DNA of 64,000 nucleotides from Streptomyces sp. NBC_00224 (GTDB lineage: Bacteria > Actinomycetota > Actinomycetes > Streptomycetales > Streptomycetaceae). Made by a program: the position numbers and the translations under genes. The stretch lies in NCBI RefSeq assembly GCF_041435195.1, contig NZ_CP108106.1, positions 124,001 through 188,000 on the forward strand, written 5' to 3'. The stretch's first letter is position 1. The number at the start of each line of letters is the position of its first letter. This document shows, in pieces, positions 45,396 through 62,019 of the stretch. Under the pieces are notes generated by a model. That model worked only from the letters and a program-made list of their open reading frames with translations. It had not been told where the DNA came from and ran no database searches.

Positions 45396-45589
45396 GGACC
45401 AGAAGCTGAGGAGGCCTTCGGGGCGGGGCGAACGCACAGCCGGGCAGACCATCCCCGCCAACCTGTGCAACAGCCGCGAAGAAGTCAGACGGCCCCCGGC
45501 GCCCTGTCCCGGCCGACGCCCCCGACTCCGCCCGCGCACTGCCTCAGCAGCGAACCACTCACGACAGGCGATCGGTGTGTCAGTCATTC

Positions 45590-46240
45590 ACCGCCAGCGT
45601 CTCGCCGCTGCGCCGCACGGCTGATTCCCTCCCGAAGAAACCCCGACCGTGGGGGGCGAGCGGCGGGTTGACGTGCGCGGATGACGTGGCGGGTTCAGGG
45701 TGGTGGGGCTGGAGTGGCGAGTGCCTGGAGGACCTCCGCACAGCCCGATGCAGCAGCCCGGCGGCGAGAACAAGCAGCCCGCACGCCGACGGATACGACC
45801 GTGGCTGACGCATACGGCGGCGGCCACGGTGGGGCTGCTGATCGGAGCGCTGGCCGCCTCCGTGGACCGCTCGTCCTCCCACGACAGCGCAACGCCGACG
45901 GCAACGGTGACAGCCACGCGCACCCAGACGACGGCGCCATCGCCGGCGACTGCTCCGGCACGCTCCCAGCAGGCAGGACGCGTCAAAGCCGGGCAGATCC
46001 CGGGAGACGGCGTCTTCCTCATCGGCCGCGATATCGAACCCGGCACCTACCGCAGCGAAGGCCCCCAGGGCGACCCCATCACCTACTGCAACTGGGCCCG
46101 ACTGAGCGGAACCAGCGGCGAGAGCAAAGACGTGATCAGTTCCGACTCTTCCAAGGGTGCCGAGACCGTCACCATCGCCGCCACCGACAAAGCCTTCCGC
46201 AGCAACAGCTGCCAAACACGGAAGAAGACCAACTGAGCAA
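45590..46240 (+). repeat. Duplicated segment, copy A
   Basis: About 640 bp, covering the membrane-protein gene and about 110 bp upstream, is homologous to 60320-60965. Identity extends into the upstream non-coding DNA (for example a shared GGCGGGTTCAG before the start), so this is a DNA duplication, not only a protein family. Each copy stands immediately before the trailer end of a CRISPR array. Confidence 0.85.
45703..46236 (+). CDS. Membrane-anchored secreted-domain protein, copy A
   Basis: A 177-aa protein with a short cytoplasmic head, one transmembrane helix (LTHTAAATVGLLIGALAASV), a Thr/Ala/Pro-rich linker and an extracytoplasmic domain: PGDGVFLIGRDIEPGTYRSE, then CNWARLSGTSGE and AETVTIAATDKAFRSNSC. 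This domain (GTY, C-WARL, two cysteines probably disulfide-linked) is common in Streptomyces surface lipoproteins of unknown role. A close paralogue is at 60441-60962. The gene stops 186 bp before the first repeat of array 1, transcribed toward it. Confidence 0.75.
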   Translation: MGLEWRVPGGPPHSPMQQPGGENKQPARRRIRPWLTHTAAATVGLLIGALAASVDRSSSHDSATPTATVTATRTQTTAPSPATAPARSQQAGRVKAGQIPGDGVFLIGRDIEPGTYRSEGPQGDPITYCNWARLSGTSGESKDVISSDSSKGAETVTIAATDKAFRSNSCQTRKKTN

Positions 46241-46422
46241 CATCCTCGACCACTAATCATGAGCCACCAATCCGCTGCCATTCCCGGGCGAAGGCGGCCT
46301 CATCCGCGCTGCCGCCCCGTCAGCAGGCCCACGACCTCACGGCCCGTCGCGGAGACAGGGCGCAGACCACCCAGCCCGCGCGAGGACCACCACGATGACC
46401 AGGCCGCCCGCCGTACGTACGG

Positions 46423-47169
46423 CGGTTCACCCCCGCCTGTGCGGGGACCACTCGCCCTTCTTGCCGATCGCGTGGCACAGCTCCGGTTCACCCCCGCCTG
46501 CGCGGGGACCACAGCAGCCGGTCCTCCTCCGAATACACCGCCACCGGTTCACCCCTGCCTGCGCGGGGACCACGCGAGCTGGTCGTTCAGGCGCTCGGAC
46601 TCGGTCGGTTCACCCCCGCCTGCGCGGGGACCACAAGTAGATCGTCCCCCGGCCCGACGCGTTGAGCGGTTCACCCCCGCCTGCGCGGGGACCACGCCCG
46701 GTGCGCGCGGTTCTCGACCTGGTGAAGCGGTTCACCCCCGCCTGCGCGGGGACCACGATGAGGAGGTCGTCGGGCATGGCGCGGGCCCCGGTTCACCCCC
46801 GCCTGCGCGGGGACCACACGGTGTCGCCGTCCGGGTGCGCGGTGTGCGGCGGTTCACCCCCGCCTGCCCGGGGACCACCGCTGACGCCACGGAACCCCTG
46901 CGGCCTGCTTCGGTTCACCCCCGCCTGCGCGGGGACCACGGCGTAGGGCTTGTGGGAGAGGACGCACCGGTCGGTTCACCCCCGCCTCCGCGGGGACCAC
47001 CCGGGCACGCGGCGCACCGTGTCGACGTGCGCCGGTTCACCCCCGCCTGCGCGGGGACCACCCGTCTTCGGCCCTGATGTATAGGAATTCGTACGGTTCA
47101 CCCCCGCCTGCGCGGGGAGCAGTGGATCGTGCCCGCGTACGCCAGGCCCACGTGTGGTTCACCCCCGAT
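46423..47169 (-). CRISPR. CRISPR array 1, type I-E, 12 repeats
   Basis: Twelve 29-bp repeats at an exact 61-bp period (32-bp spacers), first at 46423-46451 and last at 47094-47122, then a truncated thirteenth (GGTTCACCCCC) at 47156. On the plus strand repeats begin CGGTTCACCCC and end GGGGACCAC, except the last complete one, which ends GGGGAGCAG. In crRNA sense they run on the minus strand (…GTGAACCG end), as in I-E systems, so the leader belongs at the high-coordinate side. No leader is there: the array breaks off inside a repeat. Confidence 0.95.
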
Positions 47170-48136: not shown

Positions 48137-48347
48137 CGGTTCACTCCCGCTTGCGCAAGGAGCTGTCCATTGCGTCCCGGTCGCTGCCGAGCGAGTCCGG
48201 TTCACCCCCGCCTGCGCGGGGACCACGTGCCCCGCCACACGGGGGCGACGCCGATCTCCGGCTCACCCCCGCCTGCGCGAGGATCAGTCATTCCCGCCCG
48301 TCCCGCCGCATCAAGATCCGGTTCACCCCCGCCTGCGCGGGGACCGG
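48137..48347 (-). CRISPR. CRISPR array 2, type I-E, 4 repeats
   Basis: Four repeats at 48137, 48198, 48259 and 48319 (periods 61, 61, 60). The lowest-coordinate repeat is the most degenerate (TTCACTCCCGCTTGCGCAAG) and the third has two changes, consistent with the trailer end. The array directly follows cas6e on the same strand, where cas1, cas2 and a leader would be expected. Instead 96 bp without leader similarity separates it from the cas6e stop, so the adaptation genes and leader appear deleted. Confidence 0.9.
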
Positions 48348-48443
48348 GGTCCAGCAAGCCCGCAGAGAAGGCCGGTACGTGGATTCCTCCCGCCGTAACT
48401 ACGGCTTCTCGGAAGACGTTCAGGTCATCTTCGGGTCCATCAC

Positions 48444-49118
48444 TCACGACCGCTGCCGTATGGGCGCAAGTGTCAGCAGACCGCATCCGTATGCCTTGCC
48501 CCGGCCGATACCTGCCGCGAGTTTCTCGCGGAGTAGGTCGGCGTCGAGGACTCGGGCCATCCCGTCGAATTGTGTGCGGGAATGCTGAATTTGCTGCTTT
48601 GCGGCGGCACCTTTGGAACCTCGCGGACCGCGTACCGCGTCGAGCGGCTGGGCGTTGACGTGCAGAGGTTCCAAACCAGCGGCGGTGGATTGGCGTTCCC
48701 ACCATTCAACGGCAGCATTACCGCTCAAGGCGACGACCGGAGGGAGGTTGTACGCCTCCCGAGAGGTGACCCCTGGTTTGCGCACGGGATTGGCCACGCA
48801 GCGGTAGTTGACGATTTGCCCCTTGTGCAGCTGCGCCAACAAGTCGTCAAGGATGCGCGTTTCGACTTCTCCGTAATCCGCTGGCAGGCGGGAGGGAGCC
48901 GGCTCTAGGCGACTCTGCAGGAGGATCTGCGGTCCACGCACGGTTTCCTCAGCACGGAACAACACTCCGAATGCCGCCCGGGCCGGGCCTTCGACTCCGT
49001 CGGGGAACAACTGCATCACACGTTGGTGCAATCGGATGCCCTGGGCATTGCCGCTGAGATCTCGGCGGGCCTCGGCAGAAGTGGGTGAGGGCAAGATGCG
49101 GGTCAGCCACACAGTCAC
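48444..49118 (-). CDS. cas6e: Cas6e crRNA endoribonuclease
   Basis: A 224-aa Cas6e (CasE/Cse3) that cleaves pre-crRNA and stays on the crRNA 3' hairpin in Cascade. Features are the N-terminal VWLTRILPSP strand, LHQRVMQLFPD with the His expected for catalysis, FRAEE, and the C-terminal Gly-rich loop GIGRGKAYGCGLLTL. The GTG start is set by the GTGA overlap with cas5 and GGAGGA upstream. It is the last gene of the effector operon. Confidence 0.92.
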   Translation of the reverse strand: MTVWLTRILPSPTSAEARRDLSGNAQGIRLHQRVMQLFPDGVEGPARAAFGVLFRAEETVRGPQILLQSRLEPAPSRLPADYGEVETRILDDLLAQLHKGQIVNYRCVANPVRKPGVTSREAYNLPPVVALSGNAAVEWWERQSTAAGLEPLHVNAQPLDAVRGPRGSKGAAAKQQIQHSRTQFDGMARVLDADLLREKLAAGIGRGKAYGCGLLTLAPIRQRS

Positions 49119-49939
49119 CAAGTCCTCCTCTGCGGATGGGAGATGTGGGTATCGATATAGCTCTGGAGCTTCTCCAAATAGCCGGTGCCGAAGCCTTCGT
49201 ATCTTGCATCCGGAAGGTACGCGGCACGCCGGTACAGCGGCCGGGGCCGGTACAGACGCTCCAGCGGTGCGAACGACATCGGCTCGTCGGTGACTTCGCC
49301 GCTGTGGTGGTCACCGTCACCGCTGTCTGGGGCGTCGGTGTTCACGGGGAGCACTCCGAGCGGTCTGTCGCCGTAGAACTCGATCGGCTGCGGGCCGCCG
49401 CGCGGTCTTTTGGCTGCCAGCGGCATCCGGACCAGGTGCTGCAGCGGATCGTCCACGGTTCCCAGCAGTACCGGACCCTCTGGCGGGCAGGACCGGCGGC
49501 CGAGAAAGAGGGGCCAGTGCGGGTCGCGCAGGGCACTGGCGCATGAGTGAAGCAGTTCTTCATCGTCGGACGTGAGCGCGAGGGTGAAAGCGGCGTCGGC
49601 CAGATACTGGCGCTTGGAGACCAGAGTGCCCTTGCCCTTGGTCCTGCGTTCCCCATCAACGGTGATCACCGTCTCATCGGCGGGCAGCCCACCGCCTACG
49701 GTGTGGAAGTCGGACAGCACGACGCCGGGTCGGTCGACACGTACCGTCATCGACAGTTCCGTGAGGTCGTCCAAGGGTGCCTGGCGCTCCCGTCCGAGAC
49801 CTGCGGCGAGCAAGCCCACGACGCCGGACCGGGTGGGGAATCGGGCTGTGTCGCGGCGCAGGAATTTGCTGTGGGTGCCCCAGGACTGGAGTGGGCCTGC
49901 CAGGCGCAGCAGCAGACCGCGGGCGGGGTTTTCGGTCAC
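49115..49939 (-). CDS. cas5e: Cas5e Cascade subunit
   Basis: A 274-aa Cas5e (CasD) that binds the crRNA 5' handle and caps the Cas7 backbone. The N terminus LLLRLAGPLQSWGTHSKFLR, the following TRSGVVGLLAAGLGR and later GTLVSKRQYLADAAFTLAL are all diagnostic. The GTG start overlaps the cas7 stop (GTGA) and its own stop overlaps cas6e. Confidence 0.93.
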   Translation of the reverse strand: MTENPARGLLLRLAGPLQSWGTHSKFLRRDTARFPTRSGVVGLLAAGLGRERQAPLDDLTELSMTVRVDRPGVVLSDFHTVGGGLPADETVITVDGERRTKGKGTLVSKRQYLADAAFTLALTSDDEELLHSCASALRDPHWPLFLGRRSCPPEGPVLLGTVDDPLQHLVRMPLAAKRPRGGPQPIEFYGDRPLGVLPVNTDAPDSGDGDHHSGEVTDEPMSFAPLERLYRPRPLYRRAAYLPDARYEGFGTGYLEKLQSYIDTHISHPQRRTW

Positions 49940-51111
49940 TGCGGCGCCTCGGCGAGAGCGATGCCGATGGAGGTGGTGACGAGTGCTTCGAAGGACGCGT
50001 GGCGCTCGCCGAGGTGCTCCAGCTTGTCGAAGTGGAGGGAAGCGTGTGCCGCGTGCAGGACCCGCTCGGGGCCGAGGAGTGTGTTGGCAGCCTTGGAGTA
50101 GGCATCGACGCTTTGCACGGAGCGCCCGACGTAGCCGCCGTGTTCGGCAGACCGTACGGGCTCTTCGAAGGCTGCGGCGAACGACAGGGGCCGGTCGGAG
50201 CGGACGGCCACGTGGACCAGGTGAGGGAGCGTGTGCGGGGCCGTAGAGTTCTTCTTCGCCTGCGGTAGCGATTCGATGAAGGAGAGCAGGAACTGGCCGG
50301 CGAGCTCGCGGGCCGCCTCCAGGACCATGTCTTTGTCGTCGCTCAGGTTCTTGATGAGTTCCTGGAGATCAACGGTGGCGAACCGGTAGAAGGTGCCGGT
50401 GCTGAACTCGGCGGTGCCCATGTGACCGCTGCCGGTTTCGTCGCCCCTCATCGCGGTGACGTCGTCAACGGCCGCGAAGTAGTCGAGTTCGATCTCGGTG
50501 GTGTGCGTGGTGAAGGCATGCGCGACCTGGACGGCACCGTCGACATCGGCCCGGTCGACCTCGGCGAGCATGCGCCCGAAGAGGTTGATGACGCCGTTCC
50601 TATTGGTCAGGACCTTGTCGATCTTTCCTTTCAGAGCGCTCTCGGGCTTGGTCTTACCCCTCCCGGTGAAGTCCGTGGTGAGCGTGTCCTTGTGGGCTTC
50701 GGCGATGTCAGCAAGTTCCTCGACAGCGCTCTCGGCGAGGTAGACAAGCGCGTTGGTCAGGACCTTGTTCGTGATGGGCTGCTTGTCTTTCCCCTTGGCC
50801 ACCTCCCACTTGATGCTGCTTCCCGCCGCAACATGCGCACCCGCACGTTCGGCAAGGGCCTTCTCCCATCCACGGCTGCAAAGCACTTCGGCGACCCGCT
50901 CGCCGATGCGGCGTGTGCGCAGCGCGTTGTCGCCGAGCGTGTCCTGGAAGTGCTCGCGGATGGCCCGCTTCCAGGACTGGCTGGAGATGCGGGTACGCAG
51001 GGCGTCGCCGTAGAGCATGGTTTTCACCGAGTTGGTGTCGTCCCGGTTCAGGTTGGCGTAGGGCACGGGTTGGACGACGTGGATGTCGATGAAGCGTGGC
51101 TTGCGGTCCAT
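49936..51111 (-). CDS. cas7e: Cas7e Cascade backbone subunit
   Basis: A 391-aa Cas7e (CasC/Cse4), six copies of which form the crRNA-binding backbone. It begins with FIDIHVVQPVPYANLNRDDT and contains GDALRTRISSQSWKRAIREH, FGRMLAEVDRADVDGAVQVA and AFTTHTTEIELDYFAAVDDV, the characteristic I-E Cas7 stretches. Length is normal. It lies 23 bp after cse2 and is coupled to cas5. Confidence 0.94.
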   Translation of the reverse strand: MDRKPRFIDIHVVQPVPYANLNRDDTNSVKTMLYGDALRTRISSQSWKRAIREHFQDTLGDNALRTRRIGERVAEVLCSRGWEKALAERAGAHVAAGSSIKWEVAKGKDKQPITNKVLTNALVYLAESAVEELADIAEAHKDTLTTDFTGRGKTKPESALKGKIDKVLTNRNGVINLFGRMLAEVDRADVDGAVQVAHAFTTHTTEIELDYFAAVDDVTAMRGDETGSGHMGTAEFSTGTFYRFATVDLQELIKNLSDDKDMVLEAARELAGQFLLSFIESLPQAKKNSTAPHTLPHLVHVAVRSDRPLSFAAAFEEPVRSAEHGGYVGRSVQSVDAYSKAANTLLGPERVLHAAHASLHFDKLEHLGERHASFEALVTTSIGIALAEAPQ

Positions 51112-51134: not shown

Positions 51135-51809
51135 TCAGTCCTGATCGGCGCGGGCGGTGATCCGGTAGAAGTCCTGCAGCCAGCGGCGGCTGATGCGCCC
51201 GGACTGGTAGGGCCAGTCGACGAGGTCTGTCAGCAATTGGCCCCAGTCGATGGTGGCGTCAGTGGTGCGTACCTGGTTCACCGCGGCAGGGAGGTGAAGG
51301 TGGATGCCGCGGAGGCTCTGCCGCGTCAGGAGATTGAGGCGGCTCTCTGCGGCACTCATCCGCATGGAGGCACCCTTCGCCATGACGGCATGGCCCAGCG
51401 TGGCGCCGAACGAGGGGCCGTAAGGGGCGGGCTCGGGCGCGGCGGCTCCCTCGTCCGCTTCTCCGTCCTCCTGAAGTACTTGCTGCGCCACCGCTCCCAC
51501 TTGGTCGGCGGTGTCTTCGTCGTCTTCCTGGTCCGTCGCGAAGGCGTGCCGGGGCTGGGCCGCGATCAGGGCGGCCACTGTGTAATGTGCCTGCGCTGAT
51601 CTGTCGTCGCACCCCTGCGGCAGTAGCGGCGTCAGCAGCCGGTGCATGGCGCGGGCGCGCGGGTGGTTCAGATCGCGGCGCAGTCCCGCGCGCAGCGCTG
51701 CGCGGGCGCCGGGGTCGGTGCGGCACAGGCGTTCGATGTGCGCGGTGAATGCGGCGAACGCAGCACGATTCCTTGGGTGCTTGTTCGCTTCAGGGGCTTG
51801 GAAGGTCAT
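51135..51809 (-). CDS. cse2: Cse2 (CasB) Cascade small subunit
   Basis: A 224-aa Cse2/CasB, the helical small subunit that stabilises the R-loop. Recognisable are PGARAALRAGLRR, the following HTVAALIA-type segment YTVAALIAAQPRHA and the C-terminal WGQLLTDLVDWPYQSGRISR followed by WLQDFY. An acidic insertion (residues about 100-125) is longer than in many homologues. It lies 27 bp after cse1. Confidence 0.92.
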   Translation of the reverse strand: MTFQAPEANKHPRNRAAFAAFTAHIERLCRTDPGARAALRAGLRRDLNHPRARAMHRLLTPLLPQGCDDRSAQAHYTVAALIAAQPRHAFATDQEDDEDTADQVGAVAQQVLQEDGEADEGAAAPEPAPYGPSFGATLGHAVMAKGASMRMSAAESRLNLLTRQSLRGIHLHLPAAVNQVRTTDATIDWGQLLTDLVDWPYQSGRISRRWLQDFYRITARADQD

Positions 51810-51836: not shown

Positions 51837-53447
51837 TCACGACTTCTTGGCCGCCCGTCTCGTCTGCGGTTGCTCCATCGCCTTGTGTGGGTCTTTCAGG
51901 GCGGCTAGGAGGATCGCTTTCGCCCTGGCGACGGCCTTCGCGCCTCGTGGGGTGCGCGTCACGGAGTCGGTCACCGTCTCGTAGGCATCGAGCGCGTGTC
52001 GCCCGAAAGCCCTGCATGTGGCGTCGAAATCGAAGCCGGAACCCTCGAGACCGTCCAAGCGGTTCAGTTGCCGAAATCGTGACCAGAACTCGTCCTCCGC
52101 CGACGGCCAGTACCGTGCCGTGACCGCGTCCAGCCATGCTCCCGGATCATTCTTCTTGTCAGCCGTGTACTTCAGCCAGGCTTCCTTCGTGGCCTGCTCC
52201 AGCCGGCCTCCGAAGAGCTCGCCGAGCTCGCGGAGCTGACGCACGGGCAGGTCTGTGTTCGCCACGTCTTCCTCCACTCGGGTAAGGAGGACCGGGGTCG
52301 TGGAGTCGACGTATTGATGGTTGGCCGCCTGGCTGGAGTCCTGTTCGAAGCCGAGCGCGCGTACGCGCAAGTACTCGCTGACGTCGAAAGCGTGGTCCAT
52401 GACCCTCGGCTGGATGGGGCTGGAGTCATCCAGCTGCTTGAGCAGAAGGGCATCGATGTCCCGCCACAGAGATCGGGAGGCGCGTGCGGGCCGGGGGGAG
52501 CTCTTCCCCTCCTTGTCGATGTCCCAGATCAGGTAATCGTCTTCCGGCCGGATGCGTTCGGCGTTGTAGGCCCAGGTGATGTACGCGTCGGCGGTGTGCT
52601 GGCCATCCTCGTCAGGGACGAGCAGGAGAGCGTGCTGTGAACAGGCGGTGAGCCGGGAGCAGGGACCCTGTGGCTCGGGCATCGGCTGGAGCGGGTCCGG
52701 GAGGTCATCGCGCTCCCAGGGACACAGGTCGCTCATTCGGCTGACGTCGCCGTCCGGCGGCGTCAGACCTGCCAGGAGCGTGAGGAAGAGGTTGTCGCAC
52801 TCCGGGTGATACGACAGCGCAGCGCGCAGTGGTGAAGCCTTCGCGTAGTGGTGGCTCACCTGGCCGACCGCACGCCTCGAGAGGCCGCCGGGAGATCCCC
52901 AGTAGTGCCAGGTCAGCAACGACAGTGCCGCCTGCGAAAGGTTGGGGAGTACGAGCTGGTCATGGCTCCAGTGCCCGAACCAGGAATGGTTGTTGCCCGC
53001 TGACCGGCTCATGACCAGCTTGTGGACCCCGGCGGTGCGGTTCCTGTCGCACTGGTCGGAAAGGCGAGGGTCCTGAAGCCAGGGACGATCGCGATCGAAC
53101 AGGTCGAATCGGTGAGTCCACTGGTCGAAGTAGCCGGCGATGCCGGCCTTGCGGCCGTCGGGGAGTTCGATGCTCTGCTCGGGAAGACCCTGCTCAAGGA
53201 TTTCCTCCCGCCGGTCGCCCCAGCTTCCGGGACCGGCCTCGTCCAGCGCGGTGATCCGGGCCGTGAGCGCGTACAGCAAGCGCAGCATCGCAGAGTGAGC
53301 CGGAGCCTCCGGAATCAGCAGCGTGCGGATCTCTCGGGCCTGCAGGAACAGGCTCCTGAGGCCCACGTGAGATGGGCCTGACTTCCCATCCAGCCATGCG
53401 ACCGGAATCCATGGCTGTTCGATCAGATTGGACGCAGGCGTGGACAC
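51837..53447 (-). CDS. cse1: Cse1 (CasA) Cascade large subunit
   Basis: A 536-aa Cse1/CasA (Cas8e), which recognises the PAM and recruits Cas3. The N terminus NLIEQPWIPVAWLDGKSGP, FDLFDRDRPWLQDPRL, SGNNHSWFGHWSHD-type sequence (here SAGNNHSWFGHWSHDQ) and LLTWHYWGSPGGLSRR are typical. The C-terminal four-helix bundle begins around EDEFWSRFRQLN. No truncation is seen, so target search and R-loop formation should be possible. Confidence 0.93.
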   Translation of the reverse strand: MSTPASNLIEQPWIPVAWLDGKSGPSHVGLRSLFLQAREIRTLLIPEAPAHSAMLRLLYALTARITALDEAGPGSWGDRREEILEQGLPEQSIELPDGRKAGIAGYFDQWTHRFDLFDRDRPWLQDPRLSDQCDRNRTAGVHKLVMSRSAGNNHSWFGHWSHDQLVLPNLSQAALSLLTWHYWGSPGGLSRRAVGQVSHHYAKASPLRAALSYHPECDNLFLTLLAGLTPPDGDVSRMSDLCPWERDDLPDPLQPMPEPQGPCSRLTACSQHALLLVPDEDGQHTADAYITWAYNAERIRPEDDYLIWDIDKEGKSSPRPARASRSLWRDIDALLLKQLDDSSPIQPRVMDHAFDVSEYLRVRALGFEQDSSQAANHQYVDSTTPVLLTRVEEDVANTDLPVRQLRELGELFGGRLEQATKEAWLKYTADKKNDPGAWLDAVTARYWPSAEDEFWSRFRQLNRLDGLEGSGFDFDATCRAFGRHALDAYETVTDSVTRTPRGAKAVARAKAILLAALKDPHKAMEQPQTRRAAKKS

Positions 53448-53512: not shown

Positions 53513-56242
53513 TTACGGCAACGGATCAATTTTCAGGCCAAGTTCACTTATGCAGAAACGGTGGGTCGGGCTGACGTACACCCATGCACCGTCTTCCCGC
53601 CTCAGGTTCAGTCGGAGAACATTCTGGAGGGCGGCCATGTCGCGCCAGGCGGCGTTGGCATCGCCCTCCACACCCTCGACAAGTCGCTTCGGCACCGGTA
53701 TCAGATAGGGGACGAGCTGGCCTGGATTCGGTCTCCTCTTAGGGCGGCGTTGCTCAAGTTTCTGCTCCAGGACGCCGTCCTCCAACAGGTACACCGTCTG
53801 CCCCTGCTTGTCGGGCCCGGGGAAGAGGCAGACCACATGCACCACCTCCTCACCGAGCACAGACGAGAGCAGCTCGGGCTCCAAACCGGGGTGGCAGCGG
53901 CTGAGCAGACCGAGGTCACCGTCGAGCTCCCGCGGTCCAGGCACCGCCAGCCAACCCGCAGTACCCCTGGCTCTGCGTTCCCGCACCGCGCGCCGGTTGT
54001 CGAGCTGCTGGAGCTCACGCGCCGCGGACTCCCCCAACCCGTCGACGAGCTCGTCGGCGTACACCTCATCCAGCAGCAAGGGCAGTTCTCCAGGCAGCGA
54101 AATGGTCCTGCCGGCCCCCAGGATCAGGTCAGTGCGCCGCACCAGCGCGGCCTCGTCCCGTGCGGACACGTTGTCCGCTCGGAGCACCACCAGCCTTGGC
54201 CGATCACTCACGCTCTGCGCCGCGCGGGCCAGCAAGGCCGCGAGCGGTGCCAGTCCAGAGATGACGAGGTCAAAGTGCAGACCCCGGACATGTTCCAGCA
54301 TCGGCGTTGTCACCAGCACGGAGGGCCTGGAGACTCTACCGTTGGGGGCGAAGGCGTTCCGGCAGGCTGCAAGCCGCTTCCATCGGTCCTTGTTGCGCAT
54401 CTGTTCATGGATCAGGGTCACATCAAGGCCGGGCAGATCCTGTGTGAGCTGATGGAACGTGCGGATGGCTTCCGCCGGCGTCGACCGGTAGACGACGGCC
54501 CGTCCGCTGCCTTCTGTGACCACCGGTGCAAGAGCCGCCCGGATCTCGGCATACGGCGAACCGTCAACGACTGTGATGCCGAGCGTGCGGCCGCGCGTGC
54601 TGCCGGCAGGCTGCTGAGGCAAGTGCCCGCCTCCCGACCGGGCATCCACGAACGACCACCCCGGCGAGCGGCGAGGCTGGGTCACCGGCTCCTGACCACC
54701 ACCTGCGCCCCGGCGGTAGGCCGCCAGCATCGCATCCACGGACGTGTCCGCAGCCGTCGCGGCCAGGACAACCGGTATCCGCAACGCAGCAGCCCACTCC
54801 AGGAACCGGAGCATCAGCTTCTGCCCCCAGGCGCCACGGGCATGGGCTTCATCCACCACGACGACCTTGCCGGAAAGGGCAAAGAGCCTCATGACGTTGA
54901 ACTTCACCGGCATGACAGCCTGCAGAAGCTCGTCCACCGTCCCCGTGCCGAGCGCAGCCAAGAGCGCGCGGTGATGGGAGTTGAGCCAGCTGTTCGCTGT
55001 CAGGGCCCACTCCTCACCAGGCTCCGCGCTGACTCCCCCGGCTGCGTTGGCGTGCGCCCACTGCTCCGCGGCTTCCGCCGGCTTCAATCGCGAAGAGCTG
55101 TGTAGCAGCAGCGACCGCCAGGGCCCGGTCAGCGCCTGCCCGGCGAACGCGTGCACCTGCGCCATGTGACTGTCGGCCGCTGAACCGGTCGGCACGGCGT
55201 AGAAGAGGCCCCGCGCATTCGCTGCATGCCCAAGGACGGCCGCTGCGCGAAGGACCGCTTCGGTACGGTCCTCTGACGGCGAAGCAGTCACGACCACCAA
55301 GCCCGGCCCATGTTCGGCTACCAGATCAGGCAACTGGCGAGCCATGCTCACCCCAAGACCCGTCTCCCCCACGCCCTGTGCAGACTCTGACGGCCGGGCG
55401 AAACCCGTCCCGAGCAGGTCCGCCTGCTGCACCAGACGGCGAGCCGCCGTGCGGGCGATCTGCCAGTAGGCGTCCAGGTCTTCGGGAGTTCCAGCCCATC
55501 CCTCGTCCCTGAGCCGGGTCAGGATCTCCTCTTCGATACTGGCCAGCCAGTCCGACAAGGTCACCAACCCCGTCAGGACAACAGCCGCCTCCGGCGTCAT
55601 CCGCCCCTGCGGAACCCAGGTCGCCCCGACCACTCTGCGTACCTCCTTGAAGTGGAGCCGGCGCTGCTCCTCCCAACTGCCCGCGCCCATACCGGGGTGA
55701 CGCGCAACGGGGCACCTCGAGTCCTTGTCGTAGACCACCGGGTGGAAACGGCCACCGTGCCCACCGAGGAGCTGGGCCACCGCATGGCTGAGCCGGGACT
55801 GCGGACGCCGCCTCGAGTCCGGATAGCCGCTCTCCCTGAAGGCCCCCACCAGCCACCAGTGCGCCGCCGCTTCGTGCGACTGCCTGTCCTGCGCGGCACC
55901 AGCACCGAACCCGTACCCCGGCTCACCCCTCAGCTCCTGGGCTTGCAGCCTCTTGTCCGCGTGTTTCGGTCCATTCGAGTGCAGTTGGAACGGCACACTG
56001 ATCTTCCCAATGTCATGCAGCCCCGCCCAGAATGCCGCGAGCGCACGCGCCTGCCCAGGCGAAACCTGCAGCGACTCCACCACCATGCTCCGCTGGTGCG
56101 CGGTCAGTAGTTCATCCCAGACCAGCTCGGCGACGGCCGCCGTGTCCAGCAGGTGACAGATCAAAGGATGCGTGTGATCTGCACCGCGAGCGTTCTGGCC
56201 CAGTCCGGCATGTTTGCCCCACAGGCGGGCATCCAGGGGCAT
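53513..56242 (-). CDS. cas3: Cas3 with intact HD domain but degenerate helicase motifs
   Basis: A 909-aa Cas3 of normal length. The start ATG has AAGGAG five bases upstream. HD nuclease residues remain: HPLICHLLDTA, GLHDIGK (His76-Asp77), GGHGGRFHP near 160 and LSDWLAS near 230. The superfamily 2 helicase core is complete in length but its motifs are changed: where APTGEGKT is expected it has TASPSEDRT (about 319-327, no P-loop lysine); DEAH is kept (464-467); SAT is AAT; and the expected QRxGRxHR is ARAAQSVSD (about 673-681). ATP-driven translocation is therefore unlikely. It is first in the operon, 65 bp before cse1. Confidence 0.9.
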   Translation of the reverse strand: MPLDARLWGKHAGLGQNARGADHTHPLICHLLDTAAVAELVWDELLTAHQRSMVVESLQVSPGQARALAAFWAGLHDIGKISVPFQLHSNGPKHADKRLQAQELRGEPGYGFGAGAAQDRQSHEAAAHWWLVGAFRESGYPDSRRRPQSRLSHAVAQLLGGHGGRFHPVVYDKDSRCPVARHPGMGAGSWEEQRRLHFKEVRRVVGATWVPQGRMTPEAAVVLTGLVTLSDWLASIEEEILTRLRDEGWAGTPEDLDAYWQIARTAARRLVQQADLLGTGFARPSESAQGVGETGLGVSMARQLPDLVAEHGPGLVVVTASPSEDRTEAVLRAAAVLGHAANARGLFYAVPTGSAADSHMAQVHAFAGQALTGPWRSLLLHSSSRLKPAEAAEQWAHANAAGGVSAEPGEEWALTANSWLNSHHRALLAALGTGTVDELLQAVMPVKFNVMRLFALSGKVVVVDEAHARGAWGQKLMLRFLEWAAALRIPVVLAATAADTSVDAMLAAYRRGAGGGQEPVTQPRRSPGWSFVDARSGGGHLPQQPAGSTRGRTLGITVVDGSPYAEIRAALAPVVTEGSGRAVVYRSTPAEAIRTFHQLTQDLPGLDVTLIHEQMRNKDRWKRLAACRNAFAPNGRVSRPSVLVTTPMLEHVRGLHFDLVISGLAPLAALLARAAQSVSDRPRLVVLRADNVSARDEAALVRRTDLILGAGRTISLPGELPLLLDEVYADELVDGLGESAARELQQLDNRRAVRERRARGTAGWLAVPGPRELDGDLGLLSRCHPGLEPELLSSVLGEEVVHVVCLFPGPDKQGQTVYLLEDGVLEQKLEQRRPKRRPNPGQLVPYLIPVPKRLVEGVEGDANAAWRDMAALQNVLRLNLRREDGAWVYVSPTHRFCISELGLKIDPLP

Positions 56243-56535
56243 AGTGCTCCTTGTCACAGGTTCAGTGCAGGTGTGCCTCAGCAGAACGCAACAGAGCGAC
56301 CCTTGCCTGCAACATCGCCTCGCCCTGCCGCGCCCCGCGAGGACCGACGGAGGGGAATTCAGTCAACCGCAGGCACTCGAACTGGTCCTGCGCGTAGAGT
56401 ACTTACTGCTGCACGTCTCCCTGGGAGGTGCGCGGAATCCCATTGGCTCTCCCGCCGACGGCACACCGAGATGAACGCACGACCCTCTCGAGGGATGTGG
56501 CGCAACCTCGGCCCTGTAGGCGCTATGGAGAAACA

Positions 56536-56755: not shown

Positions 56756-57028
56756 AGGTTCACCCCCGCCTGCGCGGGGACCACTTCAGCTGTCGCCTGT
56801 AGTCGGTGAGCGTGGCCGGTTCACCCCCGCCTGCGCGGGGAGCGGACATCCTCAGACAGGCGGCGCGTGTACGTATGCGGTTCACCCCCGCCTGCGCAGG
56901 GACCACAGGGCGATGCACTGCACCAGCGCGGCTTCCGTCGGTTCACCCCCGCCTGCGCGGGGACCACCGGTGCAGGACGCCCGTTTCCTGGTCCGCGCCC
57001 GGTTCACCCCCGCCTGCGCGCGGACCAG
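56756..57028 (-). CRISPR. CRISPR array 3, type I-E, 5 repeats
   Basis: Five repeats at 56756, 56817, 56878, 56939 and 57000, exact 61-bp period. Ends vary within the array (GACCAC, GAGCGG, GACCAC, GACCAC, GACCAG), and the last repeat has CGCGCGGACC instead of CGCGGGGACC. On the leader side the array runs directly into the second cas3 fragment, without leader sequence. Confidence 0.93.
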
Positions 57029-58018
57029 AGTAACGACGCGGTAGAACGCCGTCTCGGTCTTCCCCTCCCCCGTCGGCGCCGTCACCACCAAGATCCCCGA
57101 CCATCAATCGCCCCGGACAGCCCCGCCTCCACGCTCTTCTGCAAGCCGTACGGACGCGCGATCTCAGGGAACAACTCAGCGAAAGTGCCGCTCCGCAGGG
57201 CCGCCCACCCCAGACCCGCTTCCTCCTACAAGTCCGGTACTCCACGCATCAGAGCCCGCGCATGGCCAGCCAGTGACGCACGGGAACCCACATCCGCTTG
57301 GCCAGCAAGGCGTATTTACTGCCGGAGGATGACGTGCTCCTGGCTGGCGATCCAGTCCGAGACGATCACCATGCCGGCGATGACCACAGCCACCTCCACC
57401 GGCAGCGCCCCGCAGGCCGGTACCGCAGGCCCACCCAGCACCTCGTGCAGCGCCGCCACATGCTCCCACCGCTGCTCAGCCCAGGCACCGGCCCCCAGCT
57501 CCCGTGTCACGCTCAGCGGGTCCTGCAGATCACGCAGCTCAATCCCCTGCGGGTAACGGCCGTGATGCCCGCCCAGCAACTGCGGCACCTGCGCGAGCAG
57601 CAGCCGCGCGAGCCGCCCGCCCGACTGCGGATATCCCAGCCGTGCCAGCAGCTGCGGCAGGGCGCGGTGAGTGGCGTACTCATGCCGCACAACCCCTGAA
57701 CCGCCCCCGGACAGCACGCCCGTCCGCATACGCCGCCTCGTCGAGGAAGCCGCAGGCAGCCGGCCTGGTCCGAGCCGCGAGCCGCTGGAAACCCGGCGTG
57801 ATCTTCCCCAGATCGTGCAGACCCGCCCAGAACATCACCACGCCACGGGCCTGCTGCGGCCCGAGCTTCAGCGCCTCGGCGACGCGACGCTGCTGGGCGG
57901 CCGAGAGCACCGAGTCCCACACCGTCCCGCACACCACCGCCGTGTCCACCAGATGCCCCGCCAACGGATACGGCATGGGCAGCCCATCAGACTTTCCCCA
58001 TAAGCATGTATCGACCAT
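57029..58018 (-). pseudogene. cas3: Second cas3, truncated and frameshifted
   Basis: N-terminal remnant of another Cas3. The ATG at 58018 opens with VDTCLWGKSDGLPMPYPLAG and has FWAGLHDLGKITPGFQ, the HD motif. After a frameshift near 57700-57730 it continues HEYATHRALPQLLARLGYP, LLGGHHGRYP and IAGMVIVSDWIASQ. After further breaks it ends at VVTAPTGEGKTETAFYRVV, an intact Walker A, directly against array 3. The remaining helicase half is missing. In contrast to the complete cas3, the P-loop lysine and GHHG are preserved here, so this copy was the canonical one. Confidence 0.85.
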
Positions 58019-58247
58019 CACTCCCCCACCCCGAGCCCAGCAGCAGGGCAGTACTCCACCACACGCCACAGACAACGCCACAACACACCAGGCCAGACCC
58101 CCCACCGACAACACGCCCCGCCCCCAGGGACGTTGACGAGAACACCAGCCACTTCCCCCCACACAGCCGCTCACCGCAATCCCGCCCCGAACCACTACCG
58201 CCTGCCGCTACCACAACACCGCCAAAGCGCCCGCGCCTGGCCCGATC

Positions 58248-58948
58248 TGGCTCACCCCCACCTGCGCGGGGAGCGGGGCGATCTCGCAGAGGCGAGCCAC
58301 GTCCTGAGCGGTTCACCCCCGCCTGCGCGGGGACCACATCGGGCAGCCGTCGTGCCGCCACGTGGAGTCCGGTTCACCCCCGCCTGCGCGGGGAGCGGAC
58401 CCAGCTCAAGACCCAGGTTCGCCAGACCGGCGGTTCACCCCCGCCTGCGCGGGGAGCGGGCCTGCACGGCTTCACGGAACCACGTGAAGTGCGGTTCACC
58501 CCCGCCTGCGCGGGGAGCAGGTCGCAGTGAAATCGTCGCGTCGTTCCTGGCGCGGTTCACCCCCGCCTGCGCGGGGAGCAGGGCCGGCCGCTGGTGACCA
58601 GCGAGTCCTGCGCCGGTTCACCCCCGCCTGCGCGGGGAGCAGGCGCACAGGCGGTGGGAGTCGGGGTGATGGAACGGTTCACCCCCGCCTGCGCGGGGAG
58701 CAGTAGTTCGAGGAGCGCGGCGAGGTCGGCTGACGCGGTTCACCCCCGCCTGCACGGGGAGCAGGGCGCACAGGCAGCCGTTGAGCCAGAGGGCGCCGGT
58801 TCACCCCCGCCTGCGCGGGGAGCAGGCCGAGCTCTACGCCCTGCGTCGCGAGTACTGCGGTTCACCCCCGCCTGCGCGGGGAGCAGGGCCTGCTGGCACG
58901 CCGAAAGGTACTGCCCGACTGGTTCACCCCCGCCTGCGCGGGGAGCGG
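58248..58948 (-). CRISPR. CRISPR array 4, type I-E, 12 repeats
   Basis: Twelve repeats, from 58248 to 58948, at 61-bp steps (62 for the last). Most end GGGGAGCAG or GGGGAGCGG on the plus strand; only the second ends GGGGACCAC. The lowest-coordinate repeat is degenerate (TGGCTCACCCCCACC), marking the trailer. The conserved leader follows at 58949. The array is therefore transcribed leftward from that leader. Confidence 0.95.
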
Positions 58949-58992
58949 GCTTCCTGACCTGCGACGCTGAAGACCCTTTGCAAGTTCTTGAC
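58949..58992 (-). promoter_or_regulatory. CRISPR leader of array 4
   Basis: Directly adjoining the last repeat, GCTTCCTGACCTG, and, exactly 28 nt after the repeat, TTTGCAAGTTCTTGAC. The same elements at the same distance follow arrays 5 and 6. Read in crRNA sense the box is GTCAAGAACTTGCAAA, 28 nt before the first repeat. Confidence 0.8.
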
Positions 58993-59216: not shown

Positions 59217-59551
59217 CGGTTCACCCCGCCTGCGCGGGGATCAGGTCCTGGTCACCGATTCCGTGGATTTCCTGGGCGGTTCACCCCCGCCTGCGCGGGG
59301 ATCAGCGGCCCGAGCGGTACATCAGATCCACGTAGCCCGGTTCACCCCCGCCTGCGCGGGGATCAGACGCTCCTCTTGACTGATGCGGACATGGTGGGCT
59401 TGGTTCACCCCCGCCTGCGCGGGGATCAGGGCGAGCAGTCTTCGCAGGGCATCCGCCCCTCCGGTTCACCCCCGCCTGCGCGGGGATCAGCTTCCCGCTG
59501 GCCGCGCCAACTGCCGTGCGGACGGTTCACCCCCGCCTGCGCGGGGATCAG
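59217..59551 (-). CRISPR. CRISPR array 5, type I-E, 6 repeats
   Basis: Six repeats at 59217, 59277, 59338, 59401, 59462 and 59523. All end GGGGATCAG, a variant not used consistently in any other array. The first lacks one C (28 bp). Spacers are 32-34 bp. The leader starts at 59552. Confidence 0.95.
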
Positions 59552-59595
59552 GCTTCCTGAGCTGCTACATCAAGACCGCTTTGCCGTTTCTTGGC
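59552..59595 (-). promoter_or_regulatory. CRISPR leader of array 5, diverged
   Basis: GCTTCCTGAGCTG adjoins the repeat, and 28 nt from it TTTGCCGTTTCTTGGC corresponds to the TTTGCAAGTTCTTGAC box of arrays 4 and 6, with three or four changes. The spacing is identical. Confidence 0.7.
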
Positions 59596-60319
59596 CAGCA
59601 AGTCCCGGATCGAACATCTCCCCCCTCACTCCACGGCTCCCACCATCTCACCCATCACCGCTGACGTCAGAACATCGCCAACAGCCTCCGCTCCAACGGC
59701 GCTCAGCACCGCCAGCACTCGACACCTCCCCACCGGCCGTACGGGCCAAGCCCGACCAAGCTGCTCGCACGTGCCTCACAGTGGGGCGGTATTGCAGGAG
59801 AGTGCGCAAAAGATCACGGGATCGATGCGAGATGGCTGCCGCGACCAACGCTTCAACGGTGAGGACCAGACCTCGCTGTAGACGACGCCCCCGGTGCACA
59901 CCACGGTAACGAAATACAAGATGCACATCTCCCGGCTCCGGTACTGCCGCAGCCGGGGGCCACCGTGCCGCCGAAGAGCCCCCGCCGGCCTCAGGGTCGA
60001 CGGCGAAGACCCGCGGTTGAACGGCCCAGCGGGGGCCAGGATCACCTGCCAAAGAGTCCATACGGCTACCCGTGCCGGGGAGCGTTGCCGAGCGGGTACC
60101 GAAGACACCGTGCGGCCAGCCGGCGCGGGAGCTCCGCCGGACGCGATGCAGGGCGTGGCCTGGAAGTCCTTCTCACCGCGCAGGCACCAGCCATGCTGCA
60201 CCCCGCCGTCCCCCGACTTCACGCCAGTGTCGGCGCTGCCCCTGGCAGAGGCTTTCGGCTCCGAACCGATACCTGCTCCCCTCGACAGTCTCAACACCAG
60301 CCTGTGACGGGATGTTGGT
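59596..60319. other. About 0.7 kb without a recognised gene
   Basis: Between the array 5 leader and copy B of the duplicated segment. Open frames exist on both strands but show no domain, no clear start site and biased low-complexity composition. It is the place where promoter elements for array 5 might extend. Confidence 0.45.
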
Positions 60320-60965
60320 CACCGCACCCGCGTCTCCTCGCTGCGCCGGATGGCTGTTTCCTGCCTCACAGGAACCCAGCAGTAGTGGCGCTGCGGCGGG
60401 TTGGCGTGCGCGGGCGGGGTGGCGGGTTCAGTCTGTGGGGATGGAGTGGCGAGTGCCTGGAGGGCCTCCGCATGGACCGATACAGCGGCCCGACGGCGAG
60501 GACGGGCAGCCGAGGAGCAGGCGGATCCGGCCGTGGCTGACGCATACAGCAGCGGCCGCGGTGGGGCTGCTGATCGGAGCGTTGGCCGGCTCGGTGGGGC
60601 ACTCCTCCTCCGACGGGGGCGCCTCCCCCACGGTGACAGCCACGCGCACCGAGACCGCCGCGCTGCCGCCGACGGCAGCTCCGCCACGCTCCGAGGACGC
60701 AGGCCACGCGAAGGCCGGGCAGATCCCGGGTGACGGCATTTCCCTCATCGGGCGGGACATCCGGCCCGGCACCTACCACAGCGAGGGCCCCCAGGGCGAC
60801 CCCATCACCTACTACACCTGGGCCCGACTGAACAAGACCAGCGGCGAGGGCAAAGACGTGATCAGCGCCGACGCATCCAAAGGAGCCGAGACCGTCACCA
60901 TCGCAGCCACCGACAAAGCCTTCCGCACCAACGGCTGCAAGACATGGAAAAAAACCAACTGACGC
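60320..60965 (+). repeat. Duplicated segment, copy B
   Basis: Homologous to 45590-46240, including upstream non-coding sequence (shared GGCGGGTTCAG and TGGAGTGGCGAGTGCCTGGA). It lies about 14.7 kb from copy A in the same orientation, and immediately before array 6. Confidence 0.85.
60441..60962 (+). CDS. Membrane-anchored secreted-domain protein, copy B
   Basis: A 173-aa paralogue of the 45703 gene. It shares the EWRVPGGPPH head, the helix LTHTAAAAVGLLIGALAGSV, GRDIRPGTYHSEGPQGDPIT, WARLNKTSGEGKDVIS and VTIAATDKAFRTNGC. The first of the two extracellular cysteines of copy A (YCNWARL) is replaced by Thr here (YYTWARL), so the presumed disulfide is lost in this copy. The stop is 70 bp before array 6, so transcription runs into the trailer of that array, opposite to crRNA transcription. 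Confidence 0.75.
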   Translation: MEWRVPGGPPHGPIQRPDGEDGQPRSRRIRPWLTHTAAAAVGLLIGALAGSVGHSSSDGGASPTVTATRTETAALPPTAAPPRSEDAGHAKAGQIPGDGISLIGRDIRPGTYHSEGPQGDPITYYTWARLNKTSGEGKDVISADASKGAETVTIAATDKAFRTNGCKTWKKTN

Positions 60966-61032
60966 GCATACTCCGACCGTTCAAGCCCAAGCACCTCACG
61001 CCCATGCACCCGCCACCAACCAGTACGCTTCC

Positions 61033-61975
61033 CCCTTCACCCCCGCCTGCGCGGGGAGCGGTGAGCCGTGTAGACCCGGGGGTCGATCCGGTTCGGTTCA
61101 CCCCCGCCTGCGCGGGAAGCGGCCCACCGATCCGATGGGCATCGACGTCACCACCGGTTCACCCCCGACCTGCGCGGGGAGCGGTCGCGGATGCCGCCGT
61201 CCGCGTACGACAAGCCCGGTTCACCCCCGCCTGCGCGGGGAGCGGTTTGCCACGACTCAGATGGAGCTGTCGTGGATCGGTTCACCCCCGCCTGCGCGGG
61301 GAGCGGAACGGGCGCAACCTCGGCGTCTACCCGATCGCCGGTTCACCCCCGCCTGCGCTGGGACCACTGCTCGTGTACGGGCCAGCCGCCTCCTCGGGCC
61401 GGTTCACCCCGCCTGCGCGGGGACCACATGGCCACGGCGCGCTGCCGCTTTGCCTCAGCCGGTTCACCCCCGCCTGCGCGGGGACCACGTGACCAAGATC
61501 GACCTCATGTAGTCGTAGGCCGGTTCACCCCCGCCTGCGCGGGGACCACCTGGACCGCCCCTCGATCCAGGGAGAAAAGCGCGGTTCACCCCCGCCTGCG
61601 CGGGGACACGAGCGAGGGAAGGTCTTGACCGCTACGGACGACGGTTCACCCCCGCCTGCGCGGGGACCACTTTGCCCGTCAGGTGGGTATAGGCGATCGG
61701 ATCGGTTCACCCCCGCCTGCGCGGGGACCACGCTCATCCCGGTGCTCCCCTAGAGTCCAGCGTCGGTTCACCCCCGCCTGCGCGGGGACCACTTGCCGGT
61801 CTTGCCGACACCCTCCCCGAACGTCGGTTCACCCCCGCCTGCGCGGGGACCACGCGGTGTGCGGGACCGCCGCGAACCGGGGCGGCGGTTCACCCCCGCC
61901 TGCGCGGGGACCACCTGACACCCCGCCCGGCGGTGCCCTACCCTTTCGGTTCACCCCCGCCTGCGCGGGGACCAC
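61033..61975 (-). CRISPR. CRISPR array 6, type I-E, 16 repeats
   Basis: Sixteen repeats from 61033 to 61975, mostly at 61-bp period. The five oldest (trailer side) end GGGGAGCGG or similar and the eleven newer end GGGGACCAC, so the array changed repeat type once during growth. Small indels occur in repeats at 61155 (extra A), 61400 (one C fewer) and 61582 (one C fewer). The first repeat is degenerate at its start (CCCTTCACC). The leader follows at 61976. Confidence 0.96.
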
Positions 61976-62019
61976 GCTTCGTGAGCTGGGATTCTTAGGG
62001 CGGTTTGCAAGTTCTTGAC
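61976..62019 (-). promoter_or_regulatory. CRISPR leader of array 6
   Basis: GCTTCGTGAGCTG adjoins the last repeat, and TTTGCAAGTTCTTGAC lies exactly 28 nt from it, identical to the box at array 4. The 28-nt interval itself differs between arrays. Confidence 0.8.

Follow-up and report, generated by a model that had tools for sequence, protein, structure and literature searches.

Type I CRISPR immunity is explained by Cas3, which shreds the target in an ATP-driven manner, and translocation of Cas3 probably supports the primed uptake of spacers. Here we describe a type I-E locus of Streptomyces sp. NBC_00224 in which cas3 (positions 53513 to 56242, minus strand) encodes a full-length protein with ruined helicase motifs I, III, V, and VI. 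The analyzed stretch, referred to as the window, comprises 64,000 nucleotides and corresponds to kb 124 to 188 of an 8.9-Mb contig.

Two helicase-disabled Cas3 proteins have been engineered: the type I-F nCas3 of Zymomonas mobilis (K458A/D608A/R887A; PMC8753164) and dhCas3 of Escherichia coli (S483A/T485A; PMC9427990). In the sections of these reports that describe them, helicase-disabled Cas3 nicks the displaced strand without degrading the target, and the E. coli version retains collateral cleavage of single-stranded DNA (ssDNA). As far as those sections go, the engineered nickases share with the Cas3 studied here the disabled helicase motifs and a retained HD domain. However, they are man-made point mutants of active Cas3, whereas the present protein belongs to a natural, clade-wide family in which many positions differ and the HD site is altered.

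The 2025 classification lists other derived type I-E variants, as the system described here is: I-E2 (Cas5-HNH), which typically lacks Cas3, I-E3 (PD-(D/E)xK-Cas11), and I-E5 (telomeric transposon) (PMC12669027). The relevant parts of that paper name these HNH, PD-(D/E)xK, and transposon variants and not a helicase-dead Cas3, and we found no description of this Cas3 family in open PubMed Central papers. An excerpted account of a minimal type I-E system of Streptomyces gives it a STAND NTPase and no cas3 (Shmakov 2018, as told in PMC12231136). This system resembles ours in its host genus and in having no cas1 or cas2 in the locus, but ours contains a full-length cas3 under selection. In our genome the single Cas1 match is on another contig (C3), away from the window locus; no separate search for cas2 was made. 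Relatives of the operon vary in this respect, with cas1 adjacent in several and none seen in others, and published I-E variants without cas1 and cas2 exist as well, according to the literature that we could consult in part.

Helicase motifs and fold of the window Cas3

Translation of the minus strand yielded 909 codons followed by a single terminal stop; the plus strand is not open. An alternative GTG start at position 56257 would give 914 amino acids. An earlier note on this DNA, made from its letters and without mention of the strand, had claimed an intact frame of 909 codons with altered motifs, and both claims were borne out: the P-loop reads VVTASPSEDRTEA, motif III reads AAT, and motif VI reads ARAAQSVSD. 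When aligned with Cas3 of Thermobifida fusca, APMGEGKT is replaced by ASPSEDRT in the P-loop, SAT by AAT, and QRAGR by ARAAQ. Motif II (DEAH), on which the note was silent, is unchanged. Thus, of the signatures of an active helicase, G-x-G-K-T, SAT, and QRxGRxxR are missing and DEAH is present.

In profile searches, the protein matched Cas3_HD with 123 bits and the C-terminal domain of Cas3 with 39.5 bits but no DEAD domain, and it scored far under the NCBIfam cut-offs for Cas3 helicases. The predicted fold is nevertheless that of a normal Cas3, as the note had anticipated, and matches T. fusca Cas3 (4qqw) over 830 residues. Compared with the canonical type I-E proteins of T. fusca and E. coli, the dead family is alike in predicted fold, place in the operon, six of seven HD ligands, and DEAH, and differs by the loss of the P-loop Lys and both Gly residues, of motifs III, V, and VI, and of the second His of GGHHG. 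Read from the alignment, the window Cas3 lacks residues on which ATP binding and hydrolysis depend.

Relatives and selection

To place the window protein among its relatives, we examined the best 120 of 441 protein matches, drawn from the candidates sharing most words. Among these, P0002 to P0064 were full-length and 71 to 91% identical to the window Cas3, P0065 and P0066 were partial, a Streptomyces cacaoi protein (P0067) followed at 44% (46% in another comparison), and P0068 to P0121 were at 40% or lower. Together with the window protein, P0002 to P0066 constitute a family of 66 members, 64 of them full-length; P0068 to P0121 (n = 54) served as the intact reference. The P-loop Lys is replaced by Arg in 66/66 members, the first Gly by Ser in 64/66, and the second Gly by Asp or Glu in all 66, and the Gln of motif VI is gone throughout. 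All four positions are canonical in 54/54 intact proteins, whereas D, E, and H of DEAH are retained in every member of both sets. The altered motifs are therefore common to the family and not peculiar to the window, and the replacement of Lys by Arg (66/66 members, 0/54 intact Cas3) goes far past what chance would produce. The note had named such a clade, under purifying selection, as support for repurposing. Like the family, the S. cacaoi protein has Arg in place of the P-loop Lys, lacks the second Gly and the motif VI Gln, and carries Gly at the position of T. fusca H150, but it retains the first Gly. When 13 family members were placed in a tree with the S. cacaoi protein, 29 intact Cas3, and a more distant protein from S. 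triticagri (L027), the family and S. cacaoi formed one group (support, 100/100) on a long stem.

The best 120 of 328 Cas8e matches comprised 28 clusters at 78 to 99% identity, S. cacaoi and two others at 61 to 63%, and the rest at 54% or lower, two partial sequences excepted. Since Cas8e repeats the identity pattern of Cas3, the operon seems to be inherited as a unit. Cascade genes were present in 16/16 named Streptomyces loci of the family, which was found in 4 of 199 sampled genomes, our own included. Furthermore, Cas3 was matched on 31 plasmids, and 5 of these carry a relative, placed in the family by 76 to 84% identity with motifs read in one of the five; all five plasmids are linear (134 to 509 kb).

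We estimated dN/dS, the ratio of nonsynonymous to synonymous substitution rates, by the Nei-Gojobori method for 17 cas3 genes (the window and the 16 named loci; 136 pairs). All 17 have open frames, and the median ratio was 0.275 (0.20 to 0.37), a sign of purifying selection, which the earlier note had set as a test of repurposing. By domain, the values were 0.255 for HD, 0.19 for RecA1, 0.343 for RecA2, and 0.359 for the C terminus; constraint is strongest in RecA1, the domain that contains the ruined P-loop. The Cascade genes of the same loci gave 0.195 (cas8e, with one in-frame stop in L039), 0.287 (cas11), 0.174 (cas7), and 0.213 (cas5); the cas6 value of 0.538 was not used, as two cas6 types were mixed and cas6 was taken in 16/17 loci. 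Six intact cas3 genes served as a control and gave 0.25 overall and 0.178 for RecA2, at near-saturated dS. By these estimates, the dead cas3 is under selection; RecA1 matches cas8e and cas7 in its degree of constraint, and RecA2 is the relaxed part.

A decaying pseudogene or a sequencing error was considered as well, with the relaxed RecA2 in its favor. Against it, 66 members share the change, 17/17 frames are open, and selection is purifying. In addition, a second copy encoding a 100% identical protein is present at C1:8732122-8734863, in mirrored position close to the opposite contig end; the arrangement of the two copies on opposite arms is as in a terminal inverted repeat. We reject decay and sequencing error, which retain hardly any probability, on the strength of the clade-wide motif change and of dN/dS. 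The note, too, had argued against random decay. These data support retention of the gene for some role without ATPase activity, and defense by this system probably dispenses with the usual shredding of DNA by a motor. Residues invariant in the 54 intact proteins are kept across the 64 full-length members at 36 of 51 positions in HD and 48 of 169 in the helicase (40 of 102 in RecA1 and 8 of 67 in RecA2), and at 15 of 34 in the C terminus.

The S. triticagri protein, a match at 33% identity, led us to a second helicase-dead family, family B (L027, L092, and P0242 to P0258), which consists of 17 clusters 65 to 100% identical to it from Streptomyces, Embleya, and Nocardiopsis. Its P-loops resemble SAPAGPARRR, with Arg at the Lys position in 17/17, and the other motifs resemble DDVR (DEAH), TDT (SAT), and LLARASRGR (motif VI). 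All seven HD ligands are canonical in 17/17, with GGHHG in 16 and GAHHG in one. The one family B locus that was read holds cas8e to cas6e, and a scan of 392 genomes of the genus gave a single one with the family at high identity. The window's family (family A) and family B were joined in two trees with support of only 42/43 and 58 and were separated in another.

HD site, spacers, and proposed activity

The earlier note had also stated that the HD site remains. The HD, GGH, and SDW residues are literally present, but one metal ligand is lost. Counted on the alignment with the window Cas3, the seven ligands of T. fusca, a list taken partly from excerpts of the literature, are H37, H83, D84, H115, H149, H150, and D215, the last of which we take to be a metal ligand. 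The window Cas3 keeps all of these except H150, where GGHHG has become GGHGG. Throughout the 64 full-length members, the other six are kept and the H150 position is Gly; it is canonical in 54/54 intact proteins. In the HD core, the family has fixed a different residue at two positions only, P83V and H163G. Since a metal-ligand change is among so few fixed changes, the site looks remodelled more than decayed. The HD domain of Thermus thermophilus Cas3, in the part of the literature that we could consult, was solved with one metal bound by H24, H69, D70, and D205, and by position the counterparts of all four appear to be kept in the dead family. The lost ligand suggests a one-metal or loosely two-metal site in this family.

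These features fit a type I-E variant that would nick single strands without a helicase and without ATP, a reading to which we give slightly less than even weight. Cascade would form an R-loop as usual and then recruit the dead Cas3, whose HD domain, independently of ATP, would cut the displaced strand and possibly further single strands left exposed. With no reeling or processive shredding, the outcome would be only a local nick or gap, at which replicating phage or plasmid DNA would stall or break. That the natural family represents a helicase-disabled nicking Cas3 fixed by evolution has, by analogy with the engineered proteins, about an even chance. A broader version is somewhat less probable still: a motorless type I-E effector, perhaps arisen twice, would act as an R-loop-activated, ATP-independent nickase or ssDNase, with a remodelled, possibly one-metal HD site in family A and a complete one in family B.

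The strongest rival is silencing without cutting, because the lost ligand, H150, is listed as crucial for HD nuclease function in T. fusca in the part of PMC11417383 that treats it. Both domains would then be pseudo-enzymes, and the protein would clamp Cascade on the target, blocking phage transcription or replication as in type IV-A and nuclease-dead type V systems. The Gly fixed in 64/64 fits this view, and the retention of DEAH and RecA1 despite the lost ATPase motifs fits a structural role. Moreover, neither cas1 nor cas2 is annotated around any of the five plasmid loci, in a gene table that is incomplete, and a locus without them is an arrangement known for type IV-A. To the extent that PMC12669027 covers them, those systems interfere by binding and use different effectors, and the likeness holds only if the HD site is dead. 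Six of seven ligands in 64/64, an HD core far better kept than the helicase, and the complete ligand set of family B all speak against silencing, which we consider a real but less probable explanation.

The spacers of the relatives bear on the target. Those of the Streptomyces djakartensis locus (L041) matched a terminase of the Sujidade group and a capsid gene of a Gordonia phage. Spacers of dead-Cas3 loci also matched ZL12 (two), the Darolandstone terminase (33/33), the Samy head protein, Gilgamesh, the JustBecause endolysin, Kromp, and the Kradal tailspike. The genomes of S. djakartensis and of Streptomyces rubiginosohelvolus (L047, one ZL12 match) have no second Cas3 match. Six of ten phage protospacers are preceded by AAG as the protospacer adjacent motif (PAM), and the other four by GAG, TAG, CTG, and TCC. 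These ten were chosen after exclusion of weaker matches and of matches to repeat-like phage sequence; the boundaries of the two ZL12 spacers and the Darolandstone spacer, one base off, were set by eye, and for Samy, Gilgamesh, and JustBecause, where two orientations are possible, the one fitting the repeat was taken. In the CRISPR RNA orientation, which we assumed from other I-E repeats, spacers nearly always start with G (45 of 47 in the window), a trace of AAG-type uptake.

Self-directed gene regulation, a role of the kind that the note had entertained, has one finding in its favor. One of the 49 S. djakartensis spacers matches a chromosomal gene (32 of 33 positions), flavoprotein-like in our reading of its translation. 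However, that site lacks an AAG PAM, and the spacers traced in relatives match phages. For the 47 spacers of the window, no good self target turned up beyond the arrays, the only sites being a 93% match over 29 nucleotides on contig C2 and an 88% match on C1. We therefore do not favor self-directed regulation, which we regard as very improbable.

In a division of labor, the dead protein would serve as regulator or loading partner of an intact Cas3 from another locus in the cell. Contig C3 of our own genome carries an intact-type I-E system with the same repeat, one identical spacer, and one near-identical spacer. Among 17 distinct dead-Cas3 genomes, mostly drafts, 8 had a second Cas3 match, some of them truncated. 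Conversely, the remaining 9 gave no further match to an intact I-E Cas3 at an E value of 1e-15, and such a division of labor seems improbable.

Several observations weigh against nicking as the function of the family. The residue that is crucial in T. fusca is the very one replaced, which may have left the HD site with little or no activity. DEAH is likewise invariant though no longer needed for ATP hydrolysis, so an invariant residue is no proof of catalysis by itself. Constraint on RecA2 is looser than in intact cas3. The helicase mutant of E. coli Cas3 is described, in an excerpt of the literature, as abolishing target degradation in human cells, and a nick alone may not suffice for phage immunity. 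In addition, none of the window's own spacers matches a phage, an intact-type system resides in the same genome, and no array was found at 5 of 16 named loci (L044, L048, L050, L051, and L052), the finder being tied to one repeat type; the other 11 have arrays.

If nicking is nevertheless the activity, phage immunity would proceed without processive degradation and hence without Cas3 translocation. A selected, motorless Cas3 in systems with phage spacers and a normal PAM questions the need for shredding, and the requirement for translocation in immunity and in primed adaptation becomes directly testable. The family may also be a source of naturally occurring Cas3 nickases, of use in precise editing or silencing, chiefly in Streptomyces.

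Operon, arrays, and neighboring elements

The operon reads, on the minus strand, cas3, cas8e (casA/cse1; 51837 to 53447, 536 amino acids), cas11 (casB/cse2; 51135 to 51809, 224), cas7e (casC; 49936 to 51111, 391), cas5e (casD; 49115 to 49939, 274), and cas6e (casE; 48444 to 49121, 225), the five Cascade genes being assigned by Pfam and NCBIfam matches and cas3 by translation, profile matches, and alignment. This gene set, together with arrays of type I-E size (repeats of about 28 to 29 nucleotides and spacers of 32 to 33), fits type I-E. The newer variants were considered and rejected. Window cas5 matches Cas5 models only, without HNH, which excludes I-E2, and the 224-residue cas11 matches Cse2 models only, without a PD-(D/E)xK fusion, which excludes I-E3. 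For I-E5 or a Tn7-like CRISPR-associated transposon, the TnsB match of our genome is about 85 kb away, and TnsB lies within 15 kb of the operon in 1 of 17 genomes (G207). TnsB (PF09299) was matched in 7 of the 17, in drafts in which links across contigs are invisible; TnsC (PF05621) was uninformative, with matches in 17/17 dead-Cas3 genomes and 13/14 controls. In five genomes of the genus (G034, G118, G091, G028, and G068), a TnsB match and a Cas3 match lie about 10 kb apart or less, and in the two of these Cas3 that were read (L036 of G091 and L037 of G034) the helicase motifs are intact.

CRISPR arrays flank the operon on both sides. Those downstream of cas6e span 46424 to 47123 (12 repeats of 28 nucleotides with 33-nucleotide spacers) and 48138 to 48348 (4 repeats). 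An array of 5 repeats adjoins the dead cas3 (56757 to 57029), and others span 58249 to 58949 (12 repeats), 59217 to 59552 (6 repeats), and 61034 to 61976 (arrays of 2 and 13 repeats). Positions 57032 to 58088 (minus strand) hold the relic of an intact-type cas3: its 5' part, in broken form, with two main pieces that are 91% and 95% identical to cas3 of contig C3. This relic lies within the first of two segments, 57032 to 58767 and 59217 to 61976, that are about 86% identical to and colinear with contig C3. From this layout, the dead operon seems to have displaced a canonical I-E system through its arrays. A small lipoprotein-like gene brackets the CRISPR-cas block in two diverged copies (45588 to 46251 and 60327 to 60929), and a related stretch is present on contig C3.

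The five plasmids together hold 391 spacers by a simple finder, and only three are shared, between two plasmids. Among loci L038 to L053, two cas6 types and differing repeat types occur with an otherwise similar operon; cas6 and repeat may swap together. At three plasmid loci (L109, L110, and L113), the annotation places a protein of the HNH endonuclease family a few kb away, upstream of the arrays, and a predicted protein resembling it (cluster c9) is found near three further loci (L038, L046, and L047). A search for partner genes in 18 stretches (the 16 named loci, contig C3, and the window) gave no non-cas, non-array cluster in more than 3 of them, by a coarse gene prediction in which some cas genes escaped. 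The Streptomyces anulatus plasmid NZ_CP109269.1 (L109) carries a type I-C cas operon a few kb from its dead-Cas3 operon.

Type I-E-like repeats also occur in phages. Eklok (MT521991.1, 34354 to 34720; L121) contains six diverged repeats of the form CCCCGC-N4-GCGGGG, with matches in Eklok relatives too, and Samy (OR263580.1, 59590 to 59660; L122) contains two. Spaced 49 to 61 nucleotides apart in a stretch without annotated genes, they are perhaps a mini-array or a repeat mimic acting as an RNA anti-CRISPR.
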